This document shows positions 1-34,192 of a stretch of DNA of 34,192 nucleotides, piece by piece; positions within the stretch are counted from its first letter, which is position 1; each line of letters opens with the position of its first letter. Below the pieces are notes generated by a model. The model did not search any database, was not told where the DNA came from, and worked only from the letters and a program-made list of their open reading frames with translations. Source of the stretch: a virus; the IMG/VR virus record IMGVR_UViG_3300021957_004611, positions 1-34,192 of that record; one strand, 5' to 3'. A program made the translations under genes and the position numbers.

Positions 1-1185
1 GCTGGTAAAACAACTCAAGGTGTTGAAGCAACAGCAGTTGGTGCTAATTCTGGCAAAACAAGTCAAGGTGAAAACGCAACAGCAATTGGTAGTTATGCAG
101 GTGTTACAACTCAAGGTGCAGGCGCAACAGCAGTTGGTGACAGAGCAGGTGCAACAAGTCAAGGCGTAGACGCAACAGCAGTTGGTGGTTTCGCAGGTAA
201 AGATAATCAAGGCTTTGAGGCAATGGCAATTGGTAAAGAAGCAGGTAAAACAAATCAAGGCCAAACGGCAGTGGCAGTTGGTACCGCTTCTGGTAAAACA
301 AGTCAAGGTATAAACGCAACAGCAATTGGTAGTTATTCAGGTAATATAAGTCAAGGCCAAACGGCAGTGGCAGTTGGTCACAGTGCAGGTTATAGCACCC
401 AAGGCGCACAGGCTGTTGCGTTAGGTACTTATGGCGGATCTGAAAACCAAGGCGCACAATCAGTGGCAGTTGGAATGCAATCCGGTGAATTTTATCAAGG
501 CGCTGCTGCAGTAGCAGTTGGACGAGGCGGTGGCGGATACATTCAAGGCCTACAAGCAGTAGCAATTGGTGACGGAGCAGGCAGAAATGTGCAAGAATCC
601 CAGAGTATTGCTATCGGGGCTGCCGCAGGTGGTGGTAGTAAATATGAAAAAACATATGTAAGTCATGCTGGTACAAACTTAGAATTAAGCGATACAACAA
701 GTCTCATCGTAGGTGCGAAAATTTCAAATACACAAGGAGTCACTTCTGGAACCGAAATAACAGCTATTGTAGATGGCACCAACGTAACATTAAATCAAGG
801 ACTTACTGGAACACCTGCAGCAAATAGCGTAAACTTTCATCAAAACGGACAAGGCACAGAATCAATAGCAATTGGTAAAGAAGCAGGTAAAACTAGTCAA
901 GGCACACAATCAATAGCAATTGGTAACGACGCAGGTAAAACAAGTCAAAGCAATTTGGCAGTAGCAATTGGTGAAAGTGCAGGCCTCACAAATCAAGCCC
1001 AACAAGCCGTAGCAATTGGTACTGGCGCAGGTACAACCAATCAAGGCGGTGCCGCAATAGCAATTGGCAACGGCACTGCGGTTAATGATCAAGGCGAAAG
1101 TGCGATAGCGATTGGTAATTTGGCTGTCTTAGCTGGCCAAGGCGACAACGCAATAGCGATTGGGAACAGGGCAGGCGGATTTGTA
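1..1185 (+). repeat. 48-bp coding tandem repeats (YadA-like head units)
   Basis: In-frame degenerate repeats of 48 bp lie in two blocks, about 1-610 and 850-1185. Each unit contains GCA[AG]T[AT]GC-like Ala-Val/Ile-Gly codons and CAAGG (Gln-Gly). Some units are identical over 25 or more bases, for example the Gln-Gly-Gln-Thr-Ala-Val-Ala-Val-Gly stretch starting near 257 and again near 353. That suggests recent unit duplication or homogenisation. Confidence 0.85.
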
Positions 1186-1437
1186 AATCCGCAAGCAGCA
1201 ACTTCGATTATATTAAACGCAACTGGTACCCAAATAGAAAATACAACAGCAGATAGTTTTGTAGTTAAACCAATCAGAAACTATCCAATAACAACTATAC
1301 TTGGGTATAATAACGCAACAGGCGAAATTACGTACCATACGGCAATACCAGGATATACTAATACAGCAGACTTGAAAGCATTAGTAGCAGAAAGTACAGA
1401 CTTTGCAGACTTTCAAACTAGAATAGCGGCACTATAA
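1..1437 (+). CDS. Tail-fibre/adhesin-like protein with YadA-type head repeats (5' partial)
   Basis: The frame is open from base 1, so the true start lies upstream. The product is built of 16-residue repeats of the form GxxxQGxxAxA[IV]Gxxx: about twelve in a row to roughly base 610, a non-repeat insert (about 628-855), then six or seven more to about 1185. This matches the left-handed beta-roll head repeats of trimeric autotransporter adhesins (YadA/Hep_Hag), here at 16 rather than the usual 14-15 residues. The last 80 residues hold a module (NATG...KPIRN...TGEITY) shared with the next gene. It probably forms a trimeric fibre that contacts the host; that role is inferred from the fold and from neighbouring structural genes. 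A hairpin terminator follows. Confidence 0.8.
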   Translation, partial: AGKTTQGVEATAVGANSGKTSQGENATAIGSYAGVTTQGAGATAVGDRAGATSQGVDATAVGGFAGKDNQGFEAMAIGKEAGKTNQGQTAVAVGTASGKTSQGINATAIGSYSGNISQGQTAVAVGHSAGYSTQGAQAVALGTYGGSENQGAQSVAVGMQSGEFYQGAAAVAVGRGGGGYIQGLQAVAIGDGAGRNVQESQSIAIGAAAGGGSKYEKTYVSHAGTNLELSDTTSLIVGAKISNTQGVTSGTEITAIVDGTNVTLNQGLTGTPAANSVNFHQNGQGTESIAIGKEAGKTSQGTQSIAIGNDAGKTSQSNLAVAIGESAGLTNQAQQAVAIGTGAGTTNQGGAAIAIGNGTAVNDQGESAIAIGNLAVLAGQGDNAIAIGNRAGGFVNPQAATSIILNATGTQIENTTADSFVVKPIRNYPITTILGYNNATGEITYHTAIPGYTNTADLKALVAESTDFADFQTRIAAL

Positions 1438-1576: not shown

Positions 1577-2713
1577 ATGGCAATTACAAGACAAATAGTA
1601 TCAAAAAGTATCAACGCAACTGCAACAACTTACGTAGGTAAAGACGGTGAAGTGTGGGCTGATCCAGTAAACAACACACTTAGAATAGGCGACGGCACAA
1701 CAGCAGGTGGTATTTTACTTACAGGCGGAGGAGGTGGCGGTGGTGCTACAACTTGGGCCACTTTAGGTGATAAAAATAATGCCAACGGTCCATCAGAAAT
1801 TGCACTTGGTGAAAGTGCTGGACTAACAAATCAAAGTGATGAAGCAATAGCAATTGGTAAAGACGCAGGTAAAACTACTCAAGGATATCGTGGAATAGCA
1901 ATTGGTAAAGGCGCAGGTACAACTACTCAAGGCCAACTGGCAATAGCAATTGGATATCAAGCAGGTGAAACAGCTCAAGAAAGTTGGGCCACAGCAGTTG
2001 GCTTTGTAGCTGGTACTAATACCCAAGGCGAAGAAGCAACAGCAGTTGGCGCACATTCGGGTCAAGTAGGTCAAGGTGCTGGTGCAACAGCAATTGGTGT
2101 ATCTGCTGGTAACGTTGGTCAAGGTGCTGGTGCAGTAGCAATTGGTAAAGAAGCAGGCCCTTTAAACCAAGCCGCAAACTCAATTGTAATTAACGCAACT
2201 GGCAATACTCTAAACAACACTCAAGCAGGTAGTTTAAGAATTAAACCAGTTAGAAACGCAAGTGGCACTCACAGTTTAGAATATAATCCAACCACAGGCG
2301 AAGTTACATATGACACACTTGCTAGTGGTGGCTTACCTAGCAGATCCCCTCCAATCGGCGCAACAATCAGTTTAGCAGATGGTGCCGAAGCAGACTTAGA
2401 CATTACAGGATTCAAATCATACACATTAATGACTATCACAACAGACAAAGCGGCCCGTGTAAGATTGTATGTGAATGCTGCAACAAGAACAGCAGATGCG
2501 GCAAGGGCAGAGGGTATTGATCCAACATCAGACGCAGGTGTTATTGCTGAAGTAATTACCACAGGCGCAGAAACTGTTATTATTAGTCCAGGTGCTATTG
2601 GATTTAACTTAGAAAGTTCGCCAACTACAAATATACCATGTAGAGTTACAAACAAAAGCGGTAGCACAGGTACTGTACAAGTAGGCTTAGACATACTACA
2701 ACTGGAGGCGTAA
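1577..2713 (+). CDS. Tail-fibre-like protein: Mtd-like N-terminus plus YadA-type repeats
   Basis: 378 residues. Residues 1-55 (GKDGEVWADPVN..LRIGDGTTAGG) resemble the N-terminal virion-attachment region common in phage receptor-binding proteins (major tropism determinant N-domain type). A Gly run follows, then about eight 16-residue QGxxAxA[IV]G repeats (bases about 1800-2165), the NATG...KPVRN...TGEVTY module, and a 130-residue C-terminal beta-rich domain. It is a paralogue of the preceding gene in its repeats and post-repeat module. It has its own late promoter, a purine-rich GGGGAAAA ribosome site, and only 1 bp to the next gene. A receptor-binding role is inferred. Confidence 0.8.
   Translation: MAITRQIVSKSINATATTYVGKDGEVWADPVNNTLRIGDGTTAGGILLTGGGGGGGATTWATLGDKNNANGPSEIALGESAGLTNQSDEAIAIGKDAGKTTQGYRGIAIGKGAGTTTQGQLAIAIGYQAGETAQESWATAVGFVAGTNTQGEEATAVGAHSGQVGQGAGATAIGVSAGNVGQGAGAVAIGKEAGPLNQAANSIVINATGNTLNNTQAGSLRIKPVRNASGTHSLEYNPTTGEVTYDTLASGGLPSRSPPIGATISLADGAEADLDITGFKSYTLMTITTDKAARVRLYVNAATRTADAARAEGIDPTSDAGVIAEVITTGAETVIISPGAIGFNLESSPTTNIPCRVTNKSGSTGTVQVGLDILQLEA
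1800..2165 (+). repeat. 48-bp coding tandem repeats, second copy
   Basis: About eight in-frame 16-codon units of the same family as the upstream gene (GKxxxQGxxAIAIG). The repeats in the two genes could pair and recombine. Confidence 0.8.
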
Positions 2714-2714
2714 C

Positions 2715-4481
2715 ATGGAGTTGTTCCAAGTAACACTAAAACGTGATGTAGACATTGACGCTTTCTATGATGATATGGAAACACCAGGCGGTGCTATAAC
2801 TATTCCAGATAGAAAAGTAGAGTGCGAAGAAAGAAGACCAACTTCAAGAACCACAAGCTATATGCTTACCTTGGAAGAAGCACAAGAAGTAAGTTATGAC
2901 GACAGAGTAGAAATAGTTGTTCCACAGAGTGTATTGGACAGACAGACCGTAGTTAACAATGCTACATACACAGGTAGATTTACCAAAAGCACAAGTCCAA
3001 CTGGATCAATGATTACAAACGCTGACGGTGCTTCCAGAGTTACATATACCAACAATGATCACTTCAACTGGGGAATACTAAGACACATTGAAAGCACCAA
3101 CAGATCAGGTTGGGGCGGCGATGCTGGGAGTTCATCTGATAGGCGTGTTGATGACACTGTGACATATACAGCAAGTGGCAAGAATGTAGATATCATCATT
3201 GTAGAGAACCACACATGTAGTGATCACGCAGAATATTCAAGCAGATTAGTAGATTATAATTGGGGGCAACACTACAACACAATAACAGGTGGCACAAACT
3301 ACACCTACAGCAACGCAGATGCTCGTGACAACTATAATCAAGAAAATAACCATCCAACAGCAAGTGCCTCCTATGCGGCAGGTGAAAGATTTGGACTTGC
3401 CAAAGACGCCAATGTATATATGTTTGATGCGACCTACGAGCAAAGCAAATCAGGTGGTGGTAGCACTAACAGAACCTTTGCCTACATTAGAGAATTTCAC
3501 GCAAACAAATCAATCAACCCAGCAACAGGTAGAAAGAATCCTACTATTGTAAATTTAAGTTTGGGATCAGTCAACATCTATTCAGGTGCCAGTGTAGCAC
3601 ACTTCCAAGGTGTGACATTAGACAAAGGCAACGGCAGTACATTCCTTACTGATGCTGAACTGTTGGCTCGTGGGGTATACAAGAACACTGGTAAAGCGTG
3701 GACTGATTTTAACAGCAACACCGACTTTCAAGTAAACAGTTCTGCACCTAACAGTGATTTGGTAGATGCCATAGCAGAAGGCATTATTGTGGTCTCTGCG
3801 GCTGGCAACGGTAATGCTTACAATGATGTATCAGGTGGCGACAACTGGGACAACTATATGGTTGATGGCGCCGCATATGCAAACAAAGACTATTTCTTCA
3901 ATGGCTACTATCCATTTAGAGATTATTATATGCGTGGCGACAACTACTCATTCAACGGAGCAATAAACGTAGGCGCTCTAAGCAACCGCATAGATCAAGG
4001 TAAATCAGACTTCAGCAACTGGGGTCCGGGAATAGATGTATATGCCGCTGGAGAGTATGTGATGGGTGCTATGATGAAAGATGAAATTGCCTACGGTAAT
4101 CCCTATTACGGTCAGGAAAGCAATACACCAAAATGGGATACAATGGGTTCGCAAGGCGGCACAAGTTACGCCTCACCTTTAATAGCAGGTATGTTGGCTT
4201 GTTTAGCAGAAGTATATCCTACACTGACACAGGCACAAGCAAGAACATATTTACAAAACAATGCTGTTACAGGATTGATGGCAGATACAGCAGACGCAAT
4301 AGATGTAGATGTAAGCACAAGAGTAAGTACGGACGGTTCAAACATTGATAGAATAGCATTGTGGAAGAATCACAGAGCCATATCAGGCAATATAGCGTTC
4401 AACACATACAACAAAGACGTAAATAGTCGTCCTACAAGTGGATTAATGTATCCTCGTACAAGAACACGTAGGCGTGGGTAA
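2715..4481 (+). CDS. Subtilisin-like (S8 family) serine protease, probably virion-associated
   Basis: 588 residues. Recognisable subtilase blocks: VDIIIVENHT at about 159-167 (position of the catalytic Asp), NNHPTASASYAAGE with candidate His213, VSAAGNGN with oxyanion Asn365, and GGTSYASPLIAGMLA with nucleophile Ser484. The Asp block reads V-E-N-H, so the acid appears to be Glu164 instead of Asp, although Asp170 is close by. There is no signal peptide; an N-terminal region of about 130 residues precedes the fold. It lies 1 bp after a fibre gene with GGAGG in front of the start and is followed by a terminator, so it is probably a late virion protein. Fibre processing or degradation of host surface material is inference. 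Catalytic competence is uncertain. Confidence 0.82.
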   Translation: MELFQVTLKRDVDIDAFYDDMETPGGAITIPDRKVECEERRPTSRTTSYMLTLEEAQEVSYDDRVEIVVPQSVLDRQTVVNNATYTGRFTKSTSPTGSMITNADGASRVTYTNNDHFNWGILRHIESTNRSGWGGDAGSSSDRRVDDTVTYTASGKNVDIIIVENHTCSDHAEYSSRLVDYNWGQHYNTITGGTNYTYSNADARDNYNQENNHPTASASYAAGERFGLAKDANVYMFDATYEQSKSGGGSTNRTFAYIREFHANKSINPATGRKNPTIVNLSLGSVNIYSGASVAHFQGVTLDKGNGSTFLTDAELLARGVYKNTGKAWTDFNSNTDFQVNSSAPNSDLVDAIAEGIIVVSAAGNGNAYNDVSGGDNWDNYMVDGAAYANKDYFFNGYYPFRDYYMRGDNYSFNGAINVGALSNRIDQGKSDFSNWGPGIDVYAAGEYVMGAMMKDEIAYGNPYYGQESNTPKWDTMGSQGGTSYASPLIAGMLACLAEVYPTLTQAQARTYLQNNAVTGLMADTADAIDVDVSTRVSTDGSNIDRIALWKNHRAISGNIAFNTYNKDVNSRPTSGLMYPRTRTRRRG

Positions 4482-4587: not shown

Positions 4588-5343
4588 ATGAAAGTAGCAA
4601 TTGCAGGTTACGGATATGTTGGTAAGGCACATGAAGCAATTTTATCCAACTACTATGACATTGAAATAGTAGATACTGGACTTGATGAATACAGAAATAT
4701 AGTTAGCACTGATGTAGACGCAGTGATTATATGTGTGGCTACCCCAAGCAGATCAGATGGGTCATGTGAAATGCGACACGTATACGATGTTATTGAAACA
4801 TGTCCTGATGTACCAATATTAATTAAAAGTACAATTAGTGTTGATGGTTGGCGCATGATAGCTGAAACATTCCCGCAGACGAGTTTAACATATAGCCCAG
4901 AATTTTTACGTGCTGATAGTTGGATGGAAGACGCCCTGGCAATAGATCATATTTACCTGGGCGGTAGAGCTACAGGCTTTTGGACAGACATGTTTTTAAA
5001 TGCACTGGGCAAAATAAGTGTTACTGTAAATAAGCCAACCAGCCTAGTAGCGGCAAAGGCGTTGCGTAATAATTTTCTTGCACTCAAAGTTAGTTTCTTT
5101 AACCAGGTTGAAGACTATTGTAAAGCAATGGTGATTGATACACAAGAGACAATTGATGCTATCACACAAGACCCACGTATTGGTGATAGCCATAGTACAA
5201 TATCTCAAGAACGTGGATTTGGTGGACATTGTTTCCCCAAAGACCTCAAAGCAACTGTTACATCTGCTCATAAGTATAACACACGATTAACTCTACTTGA
5301 AGAAACTTTAAATTATAATGAAAGTATTAGAAAAAAGTCTTGA
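4588..5343 (+). CDS. UDP-glucose/GDP-mannose dehydrogenase family protein, lacking the C-terminal domain
   Basis: 251 residues. The N-terminal Rossmann motif GYGYVG (7-12), the KSTIS segment, SPEFLR, the central helix with K-x-x-x-N, and the catalytic block GFGGHCFPKD with Cys215 and Lys218 are all present. Family members oxidise a UDP- or GDP-sugar to its uronic acid with 2 NAD+. Usual length is about 390-450; the C-terminal nucleotide-sugar-binding domain is absent and the gene stops just before the next promoter, so this looks like a settled short form. Start: GTAGGAG lies upstream of the ATG. It may act on surface sugars of the host; substrate and activity are not resolved. Confidence 0.85.
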   Translation: MKVAIAGYGYVGKAHEAILSNYYDIEIVDTGLDEYRNIVSTDVDAVIICVATPSRSDGSCEMRHVYDVIETCPDVPILIKSTISVDGWRMIAETFPQTSLTYSPEFLRADSWMEDALAIDHIYLGGRATGFWTDMFLNALGKISVTVNKPTSLVAAKALRNNFLALKVSFFNQVEDYCKAMVIDTQETIDAITQDPRIGDSHSTISQERGFGGHCFPKDLKATVTSAHKYNTRLTLLEETLNYNESIRKKS

Positions 5344-20067: not shown

Positions 20068-22290
20068 ATGTCAAACGAACGTTTAGAATTAATGGTAACA
20101 AAAGCATTTAAAATTGCAGAAGAGTTTAGTCACAAGTATGTAACTCTAGAGCATGTATTATGTGTGATTTTAGAAGATCAGGATGTCATTGATGTGATTG
20201 TTGAATTGGGAGGTGACCCACTTCAGATTAGCGATCATACGTATGCATATTGTCATACAGAACTAGAAGAAATTAAAGTTGTAGGTACACTACGCCCAAC
20301 TAAAACACAGGCACTGGAACGTGTATTTAATCGTGCATTTACACAAGCACTGTTTAACGGACGTCAACAACTTACAACAGTGGATGTATTGTTGAGTATC
20401 CTGAGCGAAAAGAATAGTTTTGCAACATACATCTGCGCAAACAATTTTGTAACACGTGAATCATTACTAGAGCATTTGGCAGACAAAAACGATCAGGCTG
20501 AACTAGACAGCAACGACCCACGCAGTAAAAAAGAAGCAGTACTGCGTAAGTTCTGTGTTAACTTAAACAAGGAAGCAGAACAAAACAAATTAGATCCACT
20601 TATTGGACGTAAAGAAGAAGTAGACTTACTGACACAAACACTGGCCAGACGTAAAAAGAATAACGTTGTATTAGTGGGCGATGCTGGTGTTGGTAAAACT
20701 GCAATTGCTGAAGGACTGGCACATCGTATTGTAACAGCAGATGTTCCAGAAACTATTCAAGGACACACAGTATACAGTTTGGATATCGGTGCATTATTGG
20801 CTGGTACAAAATATCGTGGAGACTTTGAAGAACGTATGAAAGAGATACTGGATATCTTGGAAACACGTGATGATGCTATCTTGTTTATTGATGAGATACA
20901 CATGATTATGGGCGCAGGGTCAGCAGGACAAGGAGCAATGGATGTTGCTAACTTACTGAAGCCAGCACTACAAAAAGGCAAACTACACTGTGTAGGCAGT
21001 ACAACATATGAAGAATATCGCGAAAAATTTGAGAAAGATCGTGCTTTAGCAAGACGCTTTTATAAGATTGATGTACCTGAACCAACACCAAGTGAAGCAC
21101 GTGAGATTGTGACACAGAGTATTGCAACATACGAAACATATCACAACTTACAGATTAGTCCAGAAGCAATACAAGCGGCTGTAGACTTGAGTGTACAATA
21201 TCTACATGATAAAAAGTTGCCAGACAAAGTATTTGACGTTATTGACAGCGCATTTGCTCGTCAGCGTGTAACTGAAACAGGTAAACGCAAAAGTCTTATT
21301 GATGAAGACTTAATTAAATATGAGATTAGTAAACTTGCACGTATTCCACTAGACACAGTTGTTAATGTCAAGAAGCGTGAAACACAAATGATTAATATCG
21401 AACAAAAACTGCGTGATAGAGTTTTTGGGCAAGACGAAGCAATTGACTTATTGGCGGATGCTGTTTATATCAGTAAAGCAGGACTAAAAAGCAAAGACAA
21501 GCCTGTTGGTACTTACTTGTTTACTGGACCTACTGGTGTTGGTAAAACTGAAACTGCAAAAGCAATTAGTGAATTACTTAATATGCATCTTGTACGTTTT
21601 GACATGAGTGAATATCAGGAACGTCACACTGTTGCTAAACTTATTGGTGCACCTCCTGGCTATGTTGGACATGGTGATGGTAAAATGGGTAGCGGACAAC
21701 TTATTAATGAGTTGGAAAAGACTCCCAACTGTGTATTACTGCTTGATGAAGTAGAAAAAGCACACCCAGATGTTTTAAACGTTATGTTACAAGTAATGGA
21801 CAACGGCATGGTGACAAGCAGTGACGGTAAAGCAGTGAGTGCTAGAAATGCTGTTATTATCCTAACCAGTAACTTGGGCGCCGCTGACAGTGAAAAGAAT
21901 GTAATTGGATTTAGTGGTGGTAAACATGATACTGCACAAGACAAAGCAGTTAAAAACTTCTTTAGCCCAGAGTTCCGCAATCGGTTGGATGCTACTGTTA
22001 AGTTTAATAAACTTGACCGTGGACACATCAACAAAGTTACTGATAAATTCCTTAATGAACTAAAATATATGGTCAAGGATCGTGGTGTTACATTAACGTG
22101 GACACCAGCAGTAACTGATTGGTTGAGTGATCGTGGATTTAGTGAAACAATGGGTGCAAGACCAATGGCACGTGAGATTAATGAAAATATCAAGAAGCCA
22201 CTTGCACGTAAAATGCTGTTCGACGATTCGGAACTTAGTGATATTCAAGTAGACATCAATAATGACACAGTGCAAATTGAATATCGATAA
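20068..22290 (+). CDS. clpA: ClpA-like AAA+ unfoldase
   Basis: 740 residues (E. coli ClpA 758). N-domain repeats 1-140, AAA-1 with Walker A GDAGVGKT (204-211) and Walker B ILFIDEIH, and AAA-2 with GPTGVGKT (487-494) and LLLDEVEKAHPDV. There is no ClpB-type long middle domain. An IGF tripeptide (613-615) before FFSPEFRNRLD is placed like the IGL/IGF loop with which ClpA docks on ClpP. No clpP or clpS is in the window, so it would work with host ClpP. Overlaps the next gene by 29 bp. Confidence 0.94.
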   Translation: MSNERLELMVTKAFKIAEEFSHKYVTLEHVLCVILEDQDVIDVIVELGGDPLQISDHTYAYCHTELEEIKVVGTLRPTKTQALERVFNRAFTQALFNGRQQLTTVDVLLSILSEKNSFATYICANNFVTRESLLEHLADKNDQAELDSNDPRSKKEAVLRKFCVNLNKEAEQNKLDPLIGRKEEVDLLTQTLARRKKNNVVLVGDAGVGKTAIAEGLAHRIVTADVPETIQGHTVYSLDIGALLAGTKYRGDFEERMKEILDILETRDDAILFIDEIHMIMGAGSAGQGAMDVANLLKPALQKGKLHCVGSTTYEEYREKFEKDRALARRFYKIDVPEPTPSEAREIVTQSIATYETYHNLQISPEAIQAAVDLSVQYLHDKKLPDKVFDVIDSAFARQRVTETGKRKSLIDEDLIKYEISKLARIPLDTVVNVKKRETQMINIEQKLRDRVFGQDEAIDLLADAVYISKAGLKSKDKPVGTYLFTGPTGVGKTETAKAISELLNMHLVRFDMSEYQERHTVAKLIGAPPGYVGHGDGKMGSGQLINELEKTPNCVLLLDEVEKAHPDVLNVMLQVMDNGMVTSSDGKAVSARNAVIILTSNLGAADSEKNVIGFSGGKHDTAQDKAVKNFFSPEFRNRLDATVKFNKLDRGHINKVTDKFLNELKYMVKDRGVTLTWTPAVTDWLSDRGFSETMGARPMAREINENIKKPLARKMLFDDSELSDIQVDINNDTVQIEYR

Positions 22291-30404: not shown

Positions 30405-30629
30405 ATGAATTATCTAGTCACAGAACCCGGCTTAACTATTTTTAACTTTGCACAAAAAATTACAGCATCGCAGTACCAACTTGCACAGCAAGTATTCGGC
30501 TCAGATGCGTTTACCGCTGTGCCTTATACACGCAAGCAACAGCAAGCAATCCGTGCAAACTTCCCTAGTAAATTTACACATACCTTTACTGCAAAACAAA
30601 CTACTAATTTGTTGCAATCATATGTTTAA
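30405..30629 (+). CDS. Small hypothetical protein
   Basis: 74 residues (MNYLVTEPGLTIFNFAQ...FPSKFTHTFTAKQTTNLL). TTAGGAG precedes the start. Its 3' end overlaps the uvsE start by 8 bp, so the two are coupled. No family recognised. Confidence 0.7.
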   Translation: MNYLVTEPGLTIFNFAQKITASQYQLAQQVFGSDAFTAVPYTRKQQQAIRANFPSKFTHTFTAKQTTNLLQSYV

Positions 30630-31647
30630 TCAAGACTTACAGCGTGTAGGATTTGCATGCAAGTACATGCACCCAGACCAGACACAAAAGCCAAAAATAC
30701 TTAAAGAAGTACAAGGTGCTTACAGTGAACGCAGTACTACTATCACATGGCTTAACAATCAAAAGCAATCAGTAGCAGAAGATAAACTGTGGTTTTGCTT
30801 GGATACTAACTGGCAAAATGCATATCGTCTGATTGAGTATGTGGGTAACTTACCACAAGGTCAGCGTATGGTACGACTGGGCAGTAATATGATGCCTGCA
30901 TATACACACACCGACTGGGCTTGGTTTTACAAACAGAGCGATGTACGAGATGCCGCGGCCAAAGGCTGGGCACAAGTAGGAGAGTTAGCACGTAAACTTG
31001 ATGTGCGTGTAAGTATGCACCCTGGACAATTTACTGTATTGGCAAGTGACAATCCAGAAATAGTAAATAGAAGTGTAGAGGAGTTCGAGTATCATGCGGA
31101 TATCATCAGGTGGATGGGTTATGGTAAAAAGTGGCAAGACTTCAAGTGTAACGTCCACATCTCAGGACGTCAAGGTCCAGCCGGTATCAAAGCCGTCCTT
31201 CCAAGACTGTCTACAGAAGCACGAAACTGTATCACTATTGAAAACGACGAAAACGCATGGGGTCTCGAAGCTAGCCTAGAACTAGAAAACGATGTTGCAC
31301 TGGTGTTGGATATACATCATCACTGGTGTCATAGTGGAGGAGAATACATTGACAGAACTGACGATCGCTGTAAACGTATTATTGACAGTTGGCGTGGTGT
31401 ACGTCCTAGTATGCACTACAGCGTCAGTCGTGAAGACTTGCTGGTTGATCATCCAATGGATCAAAAGCCTGACTTCCAAAGACTATTAGAACAAGGCTAC
31501 AAGAAAGCAAAACTACGAGCGCACAGTGACTACATGTGGAATACGGCAGTCAATGAATGGGCTAGCACGTTTCGTAATGACTTTGACATTATGGTAGAAG
31601 CGAAGTGCAAAAACTTGGCAAGTATTCCGTTTGAAGAAAGTATGTAA
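30622..31647 (+). CDS. uvsE: UV damage endonuclease UvsE/UvdE
   Basis: 341 residues from the ATG at 30622; a longer upstream frame exists, but the family N-terminus (QRVGFACKYM) begins right after this Met. TIM-barrel metal-site blocks are present: SMHPGQF (His133), NVHISGRQG, TIENDENAW, LVLDIHHHWCH and MHYSVSRED. It incises DNA next to UV photoproducts using a metal cluster, starting alternative excision repair; common in marine phages exposed to sunlight. Coupled to the upstream small gene and to the GIY-YIG gene (TAATG). Confidence 0.93.
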   Translation: MFNQDLQRVGFACKYMHPDQTQKPKILKEVQGAYSERSTTITWLNNQKQSVAEDKLWFCLDTNWQNAYRLIEYVGNLPQGQRMVRLGSNMMPAYTHTDWAWFYKQSDVRDAAAKGWAQVGELARKLDVRVSMHPGQFTVLASDNPEIVNRSVEEFEYHADIIRWMGYGKKWQDFKCNVHISGRQGPAGIKAVLPRLSTEARNCITIENDENAWGLEASLELENDVALVLDIHHHWCHSGGEYIDRTDDRCKRIIDSWRGVRPSMHYSVSREDLLVDHPMDQKPDFQRLLEQGYKKAKLRAHSDYMWNTAVNEWASTFRNDFDIMVEAKCKNLASIPFEESM

Positions 31648-32519: not shown

Positions 32520-34192
32520 ATGGCAAAACAAGATTTAAATTTAGGCGCCACACCTAACGATGGTACAGGCGATCCACTCCGTGATGCAATGGACAAAGTT
32601 AATGATAACTTTCTTGAAGTTTATAATGCATTGGGCGGAAGCACACCAACTACCATTGTCAACAGTGGACAACTAGAACTAACAGGTTCTAACAAAATTA
32701 CATTTTTATACGCAGACTTAGCATCATTACCATCAGCATCAAGCTATCATGGAATGTTTGCTCACGTACACGCTACTGGAGGAGCATACTATGCTCATGC
32801 AGGAAGCTGGTTAGAATTAGCAAATAAGTCAACAATGGATGCACTTACTACCAGTAGTTTAACTGACGTAAGCAGCACAGCACCAAGTACTGGACAAGTT
32901 TTAAAATGGGACGGTTCAGAATGGGCACCAGCCGCAGACAGCGCAGGTAGTTCACTTGGAGCAGATGCAATTACAGCAGGCATGATTGCTGAAAATGTTG
33001 TAACAACTAGAGAAATTGCAGCAAACACAGTTGCCGTGGGCGACTTGGCTACAGATATTAGCATAGACTTTTTAGCAGACGTAGATACCACCACTGTTGC
33101 CCCTACAGATGGTCAAGCTCTTGTTTGGGACAATGCAAATAGTATCTGGGAACCAGGCACTATATCAAGTGGTAGTAGTTATGCTGACAGTGATGTTGAC
33201 ACACACCTAAACATAAGTGGCGCATCAAGCGGACAAATACTAAGTTGGAATGGAACTGACTATGCGTGGGTAGCAGACCAAACTGGCGGTGGTGGTGGCG
33301 GAACACCTGGCGGCTCTGACACACAAGTACAATACAACAACAGCGGCGCATTTGGTGCAGAAGCTGACTTTACATACAACGCAAGTACCAACACATTAAC
33401 AGTGGTTAACTTAGTTGCAACTAATATTACTGCAACTGGTTCTGGCACACAGACAATTAGTGCTGGTGCTAACATCGAACTAGATGCAACAAACCGTGTA
33501 CTAGTTACAGACACACCATTTAGGTTAGCAAGTTTTACAACAACTACACGTAATGCTATTGCAAGTCCCGTAAATGGTGATATGATTTACAATACTACAA
33601 CTAACCAATTAGAGAGTTATGAAAACGGTGCTTGGGTAGCAACAGCTGGATCAGGTAGTAGTTATTCAGACTCAGATGTTGATACACATCTTAATACTAG
33701 TAGTGCAACTAGTGGACAAGTATTGAGTTGGAACGGAAGTGACTATGCTTGGGCTGCAGACGCAACAGGTGGTGCAACAAGTATTAATACTGCTGGTAAC
33801 ACAGGAACAGGTAGTGTAACTTTTGCAAGTGAAACATTAACAGTAACTGGCGCTACAGGACAAATTGATGTTGATGCGGCAGGATTTGCTCTATCATTAA
33901 GTTTAGATGCAGACTTAACTGGTTTAACAACTATTAACACACATACTATTCCAAGTGGTACAGGAACATTAGCACTAACAAGTGATATTCCTGCAGACAA
34001 CACACCAACATTTGCTGTAACAGCACCAGATAGTGGAAGATATCAGTTTGACGGTGCAGGTACTGATGGTGATGACAACGCAACATTATATCTATATCGT
34101 GGATTTACATACAAATTTGCAGTTAATAGTTCAGGACATCCTTTCCATATTCAAACATCAAGTGGTGCTTACAATGCTAGTAACTTATATAC
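32520..34192 (+). CDS. Large tail-fibre-like protein (3' partial)
   Basis: At least 557 residues; open at the window end. N-terminus LNLGATPNDGTGDPLRDAMDKVNDNF is a widespread virion-attachment motif of phage fibres. A GGGGGGTPGGSDTQVQYNNSGAFGA linker and two 36-residue repeats (33171-33278 and 33654-33761, SDVDTHLN.S.A.SGQ.LSWNG.DYAW) follow. Near the cut end YRGFTYKFAVNSSGHPFHIQ resembles a cupredoxin-like domain. CAGGGG precedes the start. Confidence 0.85.
   Translation, partial: MAKQDLNLGATPNDGTGDPLRDAMDKVNDNFLEVYNALGGSTPTTIVNSGQLELTGSNKITFLYADLASLPSASSYHGMFAHVHATGGAYYAHAGSWLELANKSTMDALTTSSLTDVSSTAPSTGQVLKWDGSEWAPAADSAGSSLGADAITAGMIAENVVTTREIAANTVAVGDLATDISIDFLADVDTTTVAPTDGQALVWDNANSIWEPGTISSGSSYADSDVDTHLNISGASSGQILSWNGTDYAWVADQTGGGGGGTPGGSDTQVQYNNSGAFGAEADFTYNASTNTLTVVNLVATNITATGSGTQTISAGANIELDATNRVLVTDTPFRLASFTTTTRNAIASPVNGDMIYNTTTNQLESYENGAWVATAGSGSSYSDSDVDTHLNTSSATSGQVLSWNGSDYAWAADATGGATSINTAGNTGTGSVTFASETLTVTGATGQIDVDAAGFALSLSLDADLTGLTTINTHTIPSGTGTLALTSDIPADNTPTFAVTAPDSGRYQFDGAGTDGDDNATLYLYRGFTYKFAVNSSGHPFHIQTSSGAYNASNLY
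33171..33761 (+). repeat. Two 36-residue coding repeats in the fibre gene
   Basis: Copies at 33171-33278 and 33654-33761 both read GSSY.DSDVDTHLN.S.A.SGQ.LSWNG.DYAW.AD, 375 bp apart. The motif recurs in many marine phage fibres. Confidence 0.8.

Follow-up and report, generated by a model that had tools for sequence, protein, structure and literature searches.

A phage-encoded subtilase with glutamate at the position of the catalytic aspartate, encoded directly after a fibre gene

Subtilisin, with its Asp-His-Ser triad, is a standard textbook example of a fixed catalytic solution. In a marine-phage virus record of 34,192 bases (the whole stretch that was analysed, called the window below) we encountered a subtilase gene that seems to depart from this solution, and the locus raises the question of whether its product is a working enzyme with an altered active site and what such a protein would do next to fibre genes. 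The gene and the parts of its product are located as follows:

2704..2708, plus strand: GGAGG ribosome-binding site of the S8 gene, within the 3′ end of the upstream fibre gene
2715..4481, plus strand: Peptidase_S8 (subtilase) open reading frame, PHROG 9158, 588 aa, with the ATG at 2715 and the stop codon ending at 4481
2715..2930, plus strand: residues 1-72, N-terminal domain with I9-type propeptide topology (AF2 secondary structure)
2931..3068, plus strand: residues 73-118, variable linker, gapped and variable in the alignment
3069..4274, plus strand: catalytic S8 domain, about residues 119-520 (Pfam, alignment, AF2, Foldseek)
3204..3206, plus strand: Glu164 (GAG), at the position of the catalytic Asp, last residue of strand 159-164 (alignment, AF2)
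3222..3224, plus strand: Asp170, in a variable column, not the catalytic acid (alignment)
3351..3353, plus strand: His213, the catalytic His, at the N-terminus of helix 212-222 (alignment, AF2)
3354..3356, plus strand: Pro214, where the HG(T) motif normally has Gly (alignment)
3807..3809, plus strand: Asn365, the oxyanion-hole Asn (alignment, AF2)
4164..4166, plus strand: Ser484, the nucleophile in GTSYASP, at the N-terminus of helix 483-500 (alignment, AF2)
4428..4478, plus strand: C-terminal basic tail RPTSGLMYPRTRTRRRG, of the form RPTxGxxYPRxRxRRxG, common to the C-termini of many S8 relatives (alignment)

The protein matches PF00082 with E=9.9e-23 (81.3 bits against a curated cut-off of 21.8), and as this match begins at profile position 37, the Asp block lies outside it. 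The profile of PHROG 9158, which has no assigned function, matches residues 4-585 (E=2.2e-79). The AF2 model, built from a 61-row alignment, reached a pLDDT of 80.8 and a pTM of 0.79, and Foldseek matched it to aqualysin I, proteinase K and relatives, including 4dzt (aqualysin; E=3.4e-16, TMt 0.78), 2b6n and 2prk. As modelled, the window protein has a subtilisin fold of the proteinase-K/aqualysin type, in agreement with a first-pass annotation made from the sequence, which had called it a subtilisin. In five other contigs (L010, L039, L101, L175 and L177) the S8 open reading frame reaches about 825-870 aa, an enlargement apparently due to insertions.

When 200 phage S8 rows are aligned with the window protein, Glu164 shares its column with the Asp found in the V-D-x-x block of isolate cyanophages, and phmmer pairs it with the Asp of VIDTG in aqualysin. 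S8 enzymes carry their catalytic Asp where the first core strand ends; there the window protein lacks the Asp and has an acidic residue, Glu. His213, Asn365 and Ser484 stand at the usual S8 places when aligned with cyanophage and IMG/VR relatives: the oxyanion Asn and the Ser within GTSxxxP are both present, and in the HG(T) motif the His is kept and the Gly is replaced by Pro. The AF2 model is consistent with these assignments, as residue 164 ends a core strand, His213 and Ser484 start helices and Asn365 follows a strand. The first-pass annotation had put Glu164 in the Asp block and had fitted the other three residues to the triad and the oxyanion hole; all four readings hold, and what it overlooked is Pro214 directly after His213, where Gly is usual. 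It had left the choice between Glu164 and Asp170 to alignment and modelling; the alignment assigns the Asp position to Glu164, and the modelled strand agrees with this. Asp170, which lies six residues further on and is followed by His171 (the 'HPE' His, nearly invariant), occupies a column that varies among relatives and is therefore rejected as the catalytic acid. Being S8 by fold and profile but failing the Asp criterion, the protein is best called a variant S8 enzyme. A sequencing error at Glu164 can be dismissed, as Glu is shared by about 30 distinct relatives on separate contigs, and so can chance, as no phage row covering the column has anything but Asp or Glu there.

In this phage S8 family the Asp-to-Glu substitution is genuine, and it is both widespread and recurrent. 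About 190 of the 200 nonredundant phage S8 rows cover the sites (the rest end short of them, and one row with Glu and His-Pro ends before the Ser); wherever covered, the His, Asn and Ser are invariant and the acid position is only Asp or Glu. When the acid is combined with the residue after the His, the rows fall into Asp with His-Gly (114), Glu with His-Ala (41), Glu with His-Pro (32) and Asp with His-Pro (7). His-Gly goes with Asp without exception, and Glu is found in the phage set only where the residue after the His is Pro, in the clade of the window protein, or Ala, in a second clade (E_HA). In a tree built with the acid and post-His columns masked, the His-Pro and His-Ala groups are separate, well-supported clades among Asp/His-Gly lineages. 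The AU test rejects a single clade of all non-HG rows (p=4e-4) as well as one of all Glu rows, these p-values being descriptive, since the groups were defined once the pattern had already been seen. As the masked tree and the AU test give two separate clades, Glu arose at least twice, and a single origin is rejected. The acid column needs five changes on the tree and the post-His column two, which indicates that Asp and Glu also interchanged inside the His-Pro clade. Two close relatives, one with Glu (L005) and one with Asp (L006), are separated by a dN of only 0.035, with a dN/dS of 0.20. Both Glu clades also differ from most other rows at residues 297 and 445: they have Phe at 297 (most others Tyr), and in the A-P-G turn Ala takes the place of the Pro seen in most Asp types. 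In the alignment these look like possible further coupled changes.

Compared with nine relatives, the window gene has a dN/dS of 0.25-0.33 overall and of 0.25-0.42 in the catalytic domain, and it is under purifying selection. The low dN/dS and the restriction of the acid position to Asp and Glu argue against a decayed scaffold, and the recurrent swap suggests enzymes that are not dead but work with a modified active site. A pseudogene was also considered and is ruled out by the many separate contigs and a dN/dS of about 0.3.

As a background from bacterial genomes we used 36 S8 open reading frames, most of them from one bacterial phylum and the rest from MAGs; 11 were not aligned at the acid column, and all those aligned there have Asp, bar one. 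The exception, on a MAG contig (L268), combines Glu with HS in place of HG and is a possible third occurrence of Glu, judging from the alignment. A further MAG frame (L264) has HA without Glu, so loss of the Gly does not force Glu; the coupling of Glu to loss of the Gly holds in the phage set. The cellular relatives amount to only six loci, in MAGs, and these are probably phage-derived.

Ahead of the catalytic domain, AF2 predicts a beta-alpha-beta-beta-alpha-beta order for residues 2-70, which is the topology of I9 propeptides. A Pfam I9 search gave no match for the window protein and a weak one, below the cut-off, for a paralogue (E=0.018), and the Foldseek list includes the unprocessed pro-enzymes 3afg and 3whi. 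The predicted topology hints that the N-terminal domain is an I9-like propeptide, and the variable linker after it is likely the region where the propeptide is processed.

The first-pass annotation had noted two adhesin-like genes before the protease, and indeed YadA/Hep_Hag-like fibre genes lie directly upstream:

1..1437, plus strand: second fibre/adhesin-like gene with YadA-head-like repeats, its 5′ end cut by the window (Pfam, PHROG)
1577..2713, plus strand: upstream fibre gene, 378 aa, with a fibre-type N-terminus, YadA/Hep_Hag-like repeats and a conserved C-terminal domain
2363..2710, plus strand: 116-aa C-terminal domain of the upstream fibre, a beta-sandwich

The start codon of the protease stands 1 nt past the stop of the upstream fibre gene. 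At the relatives' loci, which were chosen for having S8 genes, the gene preceding nearly all window-type S8 genes ends with the conserved domain of about 115 residues and varies in its N-terminal part. The AF2 model of the 116-aa domain is a beta-sandwich (pLDDT 95.9); a fold search against the PDB returned nothing at E<0.001, and a viral structure library yielded only other phage proteins, several of which are fibres. The domain is present in 45 phage records. The gene directly after it encodes a protein without a Pfam S8 match in S-BM3, Sf-CH1b, ACG-2014i, PSS2 and S-SCSM1, and in S-CAM1 a fibre protein that matches S8 in part. Being found in phages without a following S8 gene, it is not an exclusive partner of the protease, and the gene order suggests that it may be a fibre-end module with exchangeable downstream partners, of which the protease would be one. 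The proposal of the first-pass annotation that the enzyme processes fibres is weakened by the same finding, as the conserved domain of the adjacent fibre also adjoins non-protease genes. In S-BM3, an open reading frame of about 2,650 aa annotated as peptidase S8 (L300:1-370; record 135315-143261) lies upstream of the fibre with the 116-aa domain.

Subtilases of the second Glu clade (e.g., L042:9152-10669) also lie beside fibre genes, and there is no 116-aa domain upstream of them. In about 30 contigs (L169-L232, e.g., L171:4998 and 6502) a Glu/His-Ala subtilase gene is directly followed by an Asp/His-Gly S8 gene, and a contig of 17,966 bases (L042) encodes three S8 proteins within about 7 kb, of the Glu/His-Pro, Glu/His-Ala and Asp/His-Gly types. 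At the right end of the window (32520-34190), a fibre gene with a T4 gp9/10-like N-terminus is cut by the contig end; it resembles the fibres that precede the second clade, and our guess is that the window phage may carry more S8 genes past this end. The closest isolates by clamp loader are those of the jumbo phage PA5oct group (54%), and the clamp loaders of other long contigs with S8 genes are about 57-63% identical to that of the window. The gene that comes next after the protease (4588-5343) is short (251 aa) and resembles UDP-glucose/GDP-mannose dehydrogenases; it matches the NAD-binding domain in part and then the central domain. Elsewhere the window has genes for a ClpA-like ATPase (20068-22290) and a UvdE-type UV endonuclease (30448-31647).

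Whether the protease is carried by the virion can be approached through a homologue. The S8 homologue gp144 (1411 aa) of Synechococcus phage S-SCSM1 carries the note '(virion protein)' in its record, one of 47 such tags. For S-SCSM1, mass spectrometry detected 45 proteins, including NMNAT and cell-wall enzymes (PMC9602691). These non-structural proteins appear tagged in the record, so the tag probably stands for detection in virions; the counts of 47 and 45 are not identical. As gp144 is a distant, Asp-type homologue without an adjacent upstream fibre domain, it lends indirect support, by analogy, to a virion location of the window protein and to the 'virion-type' label of the first-pass annotation. 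Some phages have the S8 domain within a larger protein (974-1411 aa).

On balance, and by a little, we think it probable that the gene product is an active S8 protease of the zymogen type on the tail-fibre apparatus, working with a Ser-His-Glu triad. Our starting points are the fold, the residue positions, the conservation, the selection, the repeated origin and the gene order, all computed directly, and from them we infer catalytic activity, self-processing, docking and the substrate. Ser484 would act as the nucleophile, His213 as the general base and Asn365 as the oxyanion Asn, and Glu164 would contact His213 and stand in for the Asp that orients the His. The swap is accompanied by loss of the Gly that follows the His, from HG to HP here and to HA in the second clade. 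The N-terminal domain is probably an intramolecular chaperone or inhibitor that is cleaved off by the enzyme itself. Going by gene order, the protease is probably recruited to the fibre encoded directly upstream, perhaps via the C-terminal beta-sandwich of the latter, and a fibre-borne protease would act at the host surface in adsorption.

The close linkage to the fibre gene would also suit an assembly maturase, which trims the adjacent fibre (for instance its conserved C-terminal domain) in the infected cell and could be absent from the virion. The 1-nt spacing, the ribosome-binding site inside the fibre gene and the presence of the same C-terminal domain before nearly all window-type S8 genes all speak for such a role. 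However, several phages have the domain before non-S8 genes, so it is no protease-specific substrate. The E_HA clade lacks it upstream, one homologue bears a virion-protein tag and some S8 domains reside inside large structural proteins. We regard a maturase as unlikely, while leaving it some weight.

The doubts about the active site itself take two forms. The first-pass annotation had allowed for a binding-only pseudo-protease. Such a protein would be a subtilisin scaffold without catalysis, used at the fibre as an adhesin or adaptor. Two usually invariant positions are indeed changed, Asp to Glu and Gly to Pro, the latter next to the catalytic His where it could disturb the site; the fibre context fits as well, and the S-CAM1 tail-fibre protein has the partial S8 match alone. 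Against this, the His, Asn and Ser do not vary and the acid is only Asp or Glu in about 190 proteins, the two acids are swapped among near relatives, when a dead site would not stay limited to acids, the gene is under purifying selection (dN/dS 0.25-0.33) and the prodomain-like domain is retained, so that we disfavour this idea as quite improbable. The other form is that Asp170 or a loop acid fills the Asp site and Glu164 is incidental. Only six residues separate Asp170 from Glu164, but its column is variable among relatives, whereas position 164 is acidic in every covering phage row and ends the expected strand, and we see hardly any chance for it.

Returning to an active Ser-His-Glu enzyme at the fibre, we tentatively suggest a wider picture, which is somewhat less likely to be right than wrong: in marine phages, working Ser-His-Glu subtilases would have at least two origins, each with loss of the post-His Gly, and would be deployed as exchangeable fibre-borne proteases, some phages having the Glu type and the Asp type side by side. 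A literature search turned up neither a Glu-type subtilase nor a fibre-linked phage subtilase, which is weak evidence, with subscription journals mostly outside its scope. The repeated Asp-to-Glu and post-His changes, with both states in close relatives, offer a natural set for testing the roles of the acid and of its neighbour. The reading would provide PHROG 9158, which is listed as unknown, with a function, and would point to proteolysis, beyond glycan cleavage alone, on marine phage fibres.

The window protein shares with S8 subtilases of the proteinase-K/aqualysin type the fold, the acid-His-Asn-Ser order, the GTSxxxP motif and an N-terminal domain that is I9-like by prediction, and differs from them in having Glu for Asp, HP for HG and long insertions and in being phage-encoded beside fibre genes. 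The cyanophage S8 proteins of PHROG 9158 / T4-GC_292 (S-CREM1, Sf-FR1, S-WAM2, P-SSM2) are about 25-34% identical to it over most of the length, and in S-CREM1, Sf-FR1 and S-WAM2 the gene directly before the S8 gene encodes a fibre with the same 116-aa domain at its end; unlike the window protein, all isolate members seen have Asp and His-Gly. The E_HA clade has in common with it the Glu, the lost post-His Gly and the fibre neighbours, but has Ala after the His, no 116-aa domain upstream and usually an Asp-type S8 gene next to it. Acetylcholinesterase-like alpha/beta hydrolases, whose fold is unrelated to subtilisin, use a Ser-His-Glu triad; Glu as the triad acid would be alike in both, and in the window protein it sits in a subtilisin fold at the Asp position. 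Sedolisins (S53) have a subtilisin-like fold with Ser-Glu-Asp, the Glu being at the His position. The window protein resembles them in combining such a fold with an active-site Glu, but it has neither Glu at the His position nor an oxyanion Asp: His213 and Asn365 are kept, and the residue that Glu replaces is the Asp.
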